Source: Clostridiaceae bacterium (GTDB taxonomy: Bacteria > Bacillota > Clostridia > DSM-8532). Taken from it: 37,712 nucleotides of DNA. The notes beneath the pieces are model-generated. The model was not told the origin of the DNA, did not search any database, and saw only the letters and a program-made list of their open reading frames with translations. The translations under genes were made by a program, and so were the position numbers. Shown here piece after piece: positions 7,209-27,517 of this stretch (within the stretch, counting starts at the first letter, position 1; every line of letters starts with the position of its first letter). Location: positions 1 through 37,712 of the forward strand of contig JAAYTP010000136.1 of the NCBI GenBank assembly GCA_012518025.1, in the 5' to 3' direction.

Positions 7209-8690
7209 GTGGAAGCTTTGTACAGCATATACAGTGATATTGCTGAAAGGACAAATGGCGATATATACATAGGAGTGGTAGGTCCTGTCAGGACCGGAAA
7301 ATCAACATTTATAAAGCGTTTTATGGATTCCCTGGTCTTGCCCAATATCAAAAACTCCTATGATCGGGAAAGAGCAGTAGATGAAACACCCCAGAGCGCA
7401 TCAGGGCGGATGATCATGACTACAGAGCCAAAATTCGTCCCCAACGAGGCTGTTACCGTGACCATGGACGACAATGTGAGTATGCGGGTCAGGCTTGTGG
7501 ATTGTGTCGGCTACATGGTTAAGAGCGCTGTAGGCCATATGGAGGGCGAAATGCCAAGAATGGTGAAGACGCCCTGGTATGATTATGACATACCATTTGA
7601 AGAGGCGGCTGCCATTGGTACAAGGAAGGTTATCAACGACCACTCCACCATTGGTGTGTTGATTACTGCTGACGGCTCCTTCACCCATATTCCCAGAGAA
7701 GAATATGAAGAAGCTGAAGAACAGGTAGTCAATGAACTCAAGGCATCCGGTAAGCCCTTTGTGATCCTGCTCAATTCAACTACCCCCGAAAGCACAGACA
7801 CCAAGACAATGGCCGATGAATTGAGCAATAAATACCATAAACCTGTTATTCCTGTTGACTGTCTCAATCTGGGGATACAGTCCATTAACAGGATTATTAA
7901 TGGTATTCTTCTAGACTTCCCGGTACGTGAAATCTGCTTCAACCTTCCAGGCTGGATTCTTTCTTTGGATAACAATCACTGGCTCAAGAAGGACTTGATC
8001 ACTGCCATAAGGGATTCCTTCCAGGACAGGTCAACGGTGCAAAATGTATATGATGCCGCGGATAAATTCAGCGTATATGAATTTTTGAGCAAGACATCCA
8101 TTCAGGACGTCAAGATGGGTACGGGTGAGGTCAGCCTTGAAATGAAACCGTCGGACGGACTTTTCTTCAAGGTTGTCAAGGAGGAAACCGGTCTTGAGAT
8201 TGATGGAGACCAGCGCCTGTTCTCAGTTCTGAAAGAATTATCTGCTATAAGGTCGGAGTACACCAAGGTTGCAAATGCTCTTGCTGAGGTCAGAGACAAG
8301 GGCTATGGAGTGGTTACGCCCAGCATTGATGAATTGACACTGGAGCCCCCGGAAATAATAAGACAGGGAAGCCGTTTCGGAATTAAGCTCAGAGGAAGCG
8401 CTCCTTCCATCCATATGATCAGGGCAGATATTGAAACAGAGATAGCTCCCCTGGTTGGTTCCGAAAAACAATCCGAGGAGTTGGTCAATTATCTTCTGAA
8501 GGAATTTGAGGGAGCTCCGGAGAAACTCTGGGAATCCAATATATTCGGAAAGTCACTCCATGAGCTGATTTCTGAAGGACTTCAGAACAAGCTTTTCAGG
8601 ATGCCTGAGGATGCCCAGCTTAAGCTTCAGGAGACCTTGCAGAAGATCATAAATGACGGCAGCGGCGGTTTGATCTGTATAATCCTCTAG
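7209..8690 (+). CDS. spoIVA: Stage IV sporulation protein A (spore coat morphogenetic ATPase)
   Basis: DIAERTNGDIYIGVVGPVRTGKSTFIKRFMD and full-length family resemblance; GTG start at 7209 after AGAGGGGG; the ORF track starts at 7155. Confidence 0.95.
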   Translation: MEALYSIYSDIAERTNGDIYIGVVGPVRTGKSTFIKRFMDSLVLPNIKNSYDRERAVDETPQSASGRMIMTTEPKFVPNEAVTVTMDDNVSMRVRLVDCVGYMVKSAVGHMEGEMPRMVKTPWYDYDIPFEEAAAIGTRKVINDHSTIGVLITADGSFTHIPREEYEEAEEQVVNELKASGKPFVILLNSTTPESTDTKTMADELSNKYHKPVIPVDCLNLGIQSINRIINGILLDFPVREICFNLPGWILSLDNNHWLKKDLITAIRDSFQDRSTVQNVYDAADKFSVYEFLSKTSIQDVKMGTGEVSLEMKPSDGLFFKVVKEETGLEIDGDQRLFSVLKELSAIRSEYTKVANALAEVRDKGYGVVTPSIDELTLEPPEIIRQGSRFGIKLRGSAPSIHMIRADIETEIAPLVGSEKQSEELVNYLLKEFEGAPEKLWESNIFGKSLHELISEGLQNKLFRMPEDAQLKLQETLQKIINDGSGGLICIIL

Positions 8691-11984: not shown

Positions 11985-12341
11985 TTATTTTTTTATCAGG
12001 CCTTGCCCCTGCTCTTCGGACACAGTAAAATCTTCCGGAATCCATAAACAACTCTTCATATCAATACATCCATTATCTTTGAACAGTATACCTTCATCAA
12101 TAAGCATTTCACGCTGGATCTGTTCCCCGCCAAAGGCATAATCCGGCGCAAGGCTTCCGTTTTTATTTACAACTCTGTGACAAGGAAGATCCAAAAATCC
12201 AGGAGCATTACGCATAGCCCAACCCACTGCGCGGGCTGCAAGCGGATTTCCGCAAAGCGAAGCTATCTGTCCATAGGCAGCTACCTTCCCCCTGGGTATG
12301 AGTGACACTGTATGATAAACCTTTTCTCTGAATGAATTCAT
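11985..12341 (-). CDS. MGMT-family protein (O6-alkylguanine DNA alkyltransferase / Ogt C-terminal domain type)
   Basis: PRGKVAAYGQIASLCGNPLAARAVGWAMRNAP, PCHRVVNKNG. Start moved to 12341 because the upstream ORF extension is repeat-derived. Confidence 0.88.
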   Translation of the reverse strand: MNSFREKVYHTVSLIPRGKVAAYGQIASLCGNPLAARAVGWAMRNAPGFLDLPCHRVVNKNGSLAPDYAFGGEQIQREMLIDEGILFKDNGCIDMKSCLWIPEDFTVSEEQGQGLIKK

Positions 12342-12358
12342 GCTTGTTTCACCTTTTC

Positions 12359-12420
12359 TCGGAGATTGCTTCGTCGGCCTGGTGTCATTGCGAGCGGAAC
12401 GGCAGTGGAGCGTGGCAATC
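12359..12420. repeat. Dispersed palindromic repeat copy R2
   Basis: gagattgcttcgtcgg + tgtcattgcgagcggaacggcagtggagcgtggcaatc. Confidence 0.85.
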
Positions 12421-12489
12421 AAAGGATATCCCTAATATGCGATTGCGGTAAGAGGATTATTTCGTCTCGTATATTAAGGATGTCCGGGG

Positions 12490-27142: not shown

Positions 27143-27208
27143 TTGTAACCCATTTGTATGGATTGGAATAGAATGTATTGAGTTCAAAAAGGCATGGGAG
27201 GTTATTAT

Positions 27209-27319
27209 ATGGGATTCTTTAAAGGTTTGGGTGACAATTGCGAAGTTCTTATGTTCATCATCCTTTTCCTGCTGCTTTTCTGGGATAGGGGCGGCTGCTC
27301 TAACATATCACCCTGTTGA
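27209..27319 (+). CDS. 36-aa hydrophobic microprotein A (MGFFKGLGDNCEVLMFIILFLLLFWDRGGCSNISPC)
   Basis: GGGAGG SD 7 nt upstream of ATG 27209, stop TGA 27317-27319; shares the C-x-V-L..ILFLxLFWDRG motif with the downstream ORF; not in the supplied track. Confidence 0.8.
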   Translation: MGFFKGLGDNCEVLMFIILFLLLFWDRGGCSNISPC

Positions 27320-27360
27320 CAAGGTTGGTGAATTGACTTTTCCCGGAAGGAGGTGCCGTT

Positions 27361-27483
27361 ATGGATAATGTCTTGGGAGCAAGAACCGGTTTTGGAAGCG
27401 ATTGCACTGTACTGTTCTTTATTCTTATATTCCTTTGTCTTTTCTGGGACAGGGGTCTCTTTAGCGGCGGATGCTGCAATTAA
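27361..27483 (+). CDS. 40-aa hydrophobic microprotein B (MDNVLGARTGFGSDCTVLFFILIFLCLFWDRGLFSGGCCN)
   Basis: AAGGAGG SD before ATG 27361, stop TAA 27481-27483, immediately followed by a strong terminator; paralogous to microprotein A. Confidence 0.82.
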   Translation: MDNVLGARTGFGSDCTVLFFILIFLCLFWDRGLFSGGCCN

Positions 27484-27490
27484 AATGCTA

Positions 27491-27517
27491 AAAGCGGGAT
27501 GTAATCCCGCTTTTTTT
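27491..27517 (+). terminator. Intrinsic terminator after the tandem microprotein genes
   Basis: AAAGCGGGAT-gta-ATCCCGCTTT followed by T-run. Confidence 0.93.

Follow-up and report, generated by a model that had tools for sequence, protein, structure and literature searches.

SpoVM and the CmpA-type proteins are very short proteins that are made in the mother cell and act at the forespore surface, SpoVM being an amphipathic, surface-bound helix. YjcZ of Bacillus (Pfam PF09680, YjcZ_2) is likewise tiny, with a Gly/Tyr-rich N terminus and one hydrophobic helix, and in clostridia the CotJ/YmaF group comprises small coat peptides rich in Cys or Gly. Here we have analysed two tandem genes, A and B, in a stretch of 37,712 nucleotides (nt) from a Clostridiaceae bacterium related to Thermoclostridium (contig JAAYTP010000136.1, the whole of which is called the window below). 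On the forward strand, gene A (27209–27319) encodes 36 amino acids (aa), MGFFKGLGDNCEVLMFIILFLLLFWDRGGCSNISPC, and gene B (27361–27483) encodes 40 aa, MDNVLGARTGFGSDCTVLFFILIFLCLFWDRGLFSGGCCN. They may be small spore membrane peptides of an undescribed family that is distinct from YjcZ, and this family may exist as an unnamed cluster in collections such as sORFdb. Our preferred reading, to which we give a probability of about 0.5, is that both peptides are expressed late in the mother cell, pair through their helices in a spore membrane, and have their tails engaged by the coat.

A and B share with YjcZ the small size, the Gly-rich N terminus and the single helix (residues 14–33 in an AlphaFold2 model), but they differ from it in helix sequence, polar cap, C-terminal tail and the A/B pairing. 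Actually, YjcZ_2 gave a hit over the cut-off in none of seven genomes, while the B. subtilis control exceeded it, and we have rejected this assignment. With SpoVM and CmpA they have the very short length in common, whereas their helix is uniformly hydrophobic and occurs in two obligate-looking types; this distinction is made by description. YmaF has the same promoter element in two genomes, but the CotJ/YmaF proteins are soluble coat proteins without sequence relation to A and B. Searches of A and B against Pfam, NCBIfam, PHROG and the Protein Data Bank (PDB) returned chance-level hits only. A weak Pfam hit to EPV_E5 (E value 0.021, below the cut-off) was discarded as a composition match, and a literature search with the LFWDRG/helix motif found nothing relevant. 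An earlier inspection of the letters alone (the sequence-only reading) had described A and B as single-pass hydrophobic peptides which it could not assign to a family, and both statements have stood.

Each gene has its own Shine-Dalgarno (SD) sequence, recognised from the sequence and from relatives, with the ATG 7 nt 3' of it: GGGAGG at 27196–27201 within a conserved GGCATGGGAGG block for A, and AAGGAGG at 27347–27353 within a conserved GGAAGGAGGTGCC block for B. The two-gene unit ends with an intrinsic terminator on the same strand (27490–27517; 11-bp stem, 3-nt loop and T tract), whose hairpin at 27490–27514 folds with −14.8 kcal/mol (z −4.3 against shuffles). A simple terminator scan overlooked this hairpin because its stem extends into the T tract; a G+C hairpin recurs at this position in relatives. 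The two consecutive open reading frames (ORFs) with near-ideal SDs and the strong terminator directly behind them are present exactly where the sequence-only reading had placed them. It had also taken the two for diverged duplicates. When B is used as query in the window's own genome (G000; 2.02 Mb in 164 contigs), it finds itself and A (E value 8.8e-7) and nothing else convincing, and A and B are 59% identical over the aligned columns, by which they are paralogues as supposed.

We have calculated the ratio of non-synonymous to synonymous substitution rates (dN/dS) across the family, a check that had been proposed together with a homologue search. It is ~0.07 for A, and for B synonymous change is saturated. 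For the 12-codon core, the corresponding ratio of proportions (pN/pS) is 0.11 in A and 0.04 in B, indicating strong purifying selection. Since these values come together with a tandem arrangement conserved in relatives, A and B are genes and chance ORFs are excluded. All five genomes of the genus keep the pair, as does most of the family (Thermoclostridium relatives); in Thermoclostridium caenicola DSM 19027, B is 93% identical. Reading frame, SD and motif, the conservation of which was the test set in advance, are conserved in the relatives.

With B as query, matches were obtained in 37 of 61 related genomes at E ≤ 0.1. A search of 392 Clostridia with a family profile (A2) detected the family in 82 genomes at E ≤ 0.01 and in 40 at E ≤ 1e-8, with up to nine matches per genome. 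In a phylum-wide draw of 399 genomes, only the window's own genome gave a match at E ≤ 1e-6, and the plasmid and phage collections contained no family match. The family is thereby a multicopy one in a subset of Clostridia. Distant genera yield the same peptide with different codons and tails. The neighbourhood of pgsA, to which the sequence-only reading had drawn attention, is a synteny conserved within this bacterial family, but in other lineages the genes have other surroundings.

The layout is common to the family: a short start rich in Gly, Asn and Arg, a polar cap [DN][SC][ET], a near-invariant helix LFFI(IL or L[IV])FLxLF, an aromatic residue and a variable tail, which is Cys-rich in the window's lineage and Gly/Tyr-rich in others. 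An IL/LI swap within the helix separates two types, the core being [IV]L.FI-IL-FLLLF in type A and [IV]LFFI-L[IV]-FL[CL]LF in type B; genes A and B of the window have the orders IL and LI, respectively. The core was extracted by a regular expression, which limits the variety that can be seen, and 93 of 94 profile hits satisfied it. The LFWDRG/Cys arrangement that had first attracted attention is present here, but it is a trait of this lineage, and the conserved element is the helix itself; outside the lineage the helix is followed by YNRG, FNG, WDNG or CNG. Likewise, conserved Cys on both sides of the transmembrane segment hold for the lineage, but the N-side Cys is frequently Ser elsewhere. 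The N-terminal side of the helix is without Cys in many members, some contain no Cys anywhere, and obligate Cys pairs have been rejected.

Conservation within the core has a period of 100–110 degrees, unlike that of a beta strand (p ~0.015 for A and B combined; p 0.002 for A alone; p 0.18 for B alone, not significant). This agrees with an alpha helix of which one face is constrained. For gene B, AlphaFold2 predicts one helix with low to moderate confidence (mean predicted local distance difference test score 65 overall, ~76–81 in the central blocks). An opposite topology of A and B as a universal rule, judged by charge bias, has been rejected, as it is seen in genera g3, g5 and g7 and not in g1, g2 and f22.

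Members of the two types stand side by side. We have defined an adjacent pair as two genes on the same strand less than 700 nt apart, with the type set by one helix residue independently of adjacency. The 40 distinct adjacent pairs in the fetched loci comprise 31 A-B, 5 B-A and 4 fused BB-A, and neither A-A nor B-B occurs. The fused BB is a second form of the family, in which two B-type helices are joined in one chain of 53–71 residues. Since the rule holds for either gene order and also for the fused form, heterotypic pairing has been kept through rearrangement. It is well supported at the level of sequence, and suggests that A and B work together in the spore envelope. At two loci (L077 and L084), the fused gene and a type A gene have a gerA-gerB-gerC germination operon as their divergently oriented neighbour, and downstream there are unassigned proteins with a hydrophobic tail, GIDDLILIGLIFIIxQEE.

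In an alignment of upstream regions from the genus and its sister genus, two conserved blocks, TTGTAACCC and GAATAGTATATATTGAGTT, precede the SD of A, and nothing comparably conserved precedes B except its own SD. In the window, a putative mother-cell sporulation promoter lies here at 27145–27177 on the forward strand, with GTAAC at 27145–27149, a spacer of 17 nt, and AATAGAATGTA at 27167–27177. The pattern GTAAC-N17-[CA]ATA has a single match in the window (27145–27176) against 0.01 expected, and a promoter scan found no vegetative sigma-70 promoter on the forward strand. Over the family, the pattern is located upstream of 43 of 94 distinct members, compared with a mean of 0.17 in shuffles, and 17 nt is strongly preferred, any other spacing being found in 0–5 members. 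In a second set fetched later, the GTAAC element precedes 11 of 24.

In C. difficile, sigma-E and sigma-K promoters have a common −10 region and differ at −35, with ATA for sigma-E and AC for sigma-K (PMC3789822). The sigma-K promoters of B. subtilis have a similar layout, and yjcZ has been assigned to the sigma-K regulon (PMC517825). The family motif, enriched at a fixed distance of 17 nt from AC to [C/A]ATA, can be compared with the sigma-K consensus AC-N16/17-CATAnnnTA; members such as L078 and L085–L087 match AC-N17-CATAnnnTA perfectly. The element is close to this consensus and is apparently a late-sporulation promoter. We regard regulation through a sporulation-type promoter as well supported at the sequence level, with sigma-K as the presumable factor.

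Few matches to the element exist genome-wide, and they mostly stand ahead of genes plausible for a sporulating mother cell: YmaF in two genomes, an unnamed repeat-rich protein, a SipL/SPOCS protein, and a MurA-like protein of the EPSP-synthase fold. In Thermoclostridium, it precedes a Hydrolase_2 (SleB/CwlJ-like) cell-wall hydrolase as well as asparagine-synthetase-like, rubrerythrin and carboxypeptidase-regulatory-domain proteins. A YmaF-like gene of C. difficile depends on sigK and is spore-associated. Matches to a relaxed pattern are suggestive only, because they barely exceed the reversed control. Petroclostridium sp. X23 (G204) has a near-identical 32-nt match in six places (L092, L095, L101, L103, L105 and L106), some of them ahead of an ORF of ~250 aa; since this looks like a repeated element and not a promoter set, the six should be left out of the count.

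Two further small ORFs were seen near such elements. At four Thermoclostridium loci (L154, L155, L161 and L162), a conserved 50-aa protein beginning MKPMNNEQEQILVLQLLLLQQKILQLAFIKGLVRDELVRLYYEEQNG, with no Pfam match, starts 26 nt past GTAAC-N17-CATA, and is possibly another sporulation microprotein. In a genome that we take to be Acetivibrio thermocellus ATCC 27405 (G365), a type A gene at locus L097 is followed by a tiny hydrophobic ORF, MSERGFVGNEIIWIIVLIILFCCLCGGFRY, located 222 nt past the motif; its SD is AGGAG, and it matches no family.

The distribution over genomes agrees with a role in sporulation. Among the 40 genomes with strong hits, 36 have spoIVA, against a background of 282 in 392. 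In the four remaining genomes, sigK exceeds the cut-off in G085 and G182, while G344 gives two sigK/sigE-like hits that fall short of it; neither spoIVA nor sigma hits were seen in G160, which is 61% complete. A place in the spore or membrane envelope, which the sequence-only reading had offered as speculation, gains support from the sigma-K-like promoter, the genes sharing it and this co-occurrence.

Based on the above analyses, we propose that A and B would be two subunit types of one clostridial sporulation microprotein family, co-transcribed in the late mother cell under a sigma-K-type promoter. The one hydrophobic helix of each peptide would be inserted into a membrane of the spore during its development, most likely the outer forespore membrane or one associated with the coat, where A and B may pack side by side through their common near-invariant helix face, the IL-versus-LI swap favouring mixed A/B contact. 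The flexible tails, rich in Gly, Tyr or Cys, would become part of the coat by binding or cross-linking, and the pair would thereby tether coat material to the membrane. A stronger form, which we put forward tentatively and hold to be less probable, is an undescribed two-component transmembrane microprotein system, in which the two helix types of the spore membrane would exist as an obligate heteromer, sometimes as a fused BB helical hairpin with an A partner, and in which A and B may be inserted in opposite orientation in some genera, as suggested by the charge bias there.

Several observations weigh against this mechanism. The helix core has only 12–13 residues, which is short for spanning a bilayer, and the charge bias around it gives no single orientation, A and B looking opposite in some genera and parallel in others. 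The window's own −10 region, AATAGAATG, is two letters off CATAnnnTA. About half of the members are without the exact motif, in part because the downstream genes of pairs use one common promoter. In C. difficile, the genes for rubrerythrin and SleB belong to the forespore, so a shared promoter element does not fix the sigma factor. In addition, the pairing counts include related genomes, with many pairs linked by descent, and the co-occurrence with sporulation genes is confounded by phylogeny.

The main rival explanation, rather doubtful in our view but the best of the alternatives, is that A and B are expressed in sporulation but, like many single-pass microproteins, serve some larger machine of the spore membrane, such as a GerA-type germination receptor or a transporter, as regulators or accessory subunits instead of acting as coat tethers. 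The promoter evidence would serve it equally, a single invariant face of the helix points to a constant protein partner, and the fused form stands beside the germination operon in the two genomes mentioned. However, most copies, including those of the window, are not next to a germination operon, and the variable tails of the copies, of which one genome can have nine, are easier to reconcile with a structural role than with a single fixed partner.

It is less probable still that the mother cell expresses the genes through sigma-E or another factor, with peptides acting at the cortex or engulfment stages. The Hydrolase_2 and MurA-like genes behind the same element would agree with this, but the −35 GTAAC at its fixed 17-nt spacing matches the AC of sigma-K and not the ATA of sigma-E. 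In a control, moreover, none of 20 spoIVA upstream regions, which are of the sigma-E type, carries the element, though some show a sigma-E-like one.

We consider it quite improbable that the pair are tandem small hydrophobic toxins of a type I toxin-antitoxin system (Fst/Ldr/TisB-like). Their small size and hydrophobic helix, the duplication in tandem and the presence of several copies would be expected of such toxins, but strong SDs with open leaders, a conserved sporulation-type promoter, constant A and B pairing, and chromosomal synteny within the family with no plasmid or phage match all speak against them, as does the lack of any Rfam antitoxin RNA in the window, a search covering the described RNA families. 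Spurious ORFs or a conserved RNA element are hardly credible, for although the blocks in the leader and at the SD show more conservation than an SD requires, the core pN/pS is 0.04–0.11 with synonymous change near saturation, and distant genera encode the same peptide by different codons.

Two other features of the window can be mentioned. The spoIVA gene is located at 7221–8687, ~19 kb upstream of the A/B pair. The intergenic segment 29558–29671 contains two 54-nt copies, 98% identical at a 60-nt spacing; the reading frames that cross it are similar to a stretch near the beginning of the ORF at 11985–12422 (SARNDT...), and it may be a dispersed repeat.

Proteins of less than 50 residues are often skipped by annotation pipelines, and for proteins of this size sporulation is poorly mapped in Clostridia beyond C. 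difficile and the solvent producers. With its many copies per genome, near-invariant helix and strict two-type pairing, this family would offer a testable case of specific helix-helix recognition with minimal sequence, and its members are candidate parts of the spore envelope in industrial thermophiles such as Acetivibrio thermocellus.
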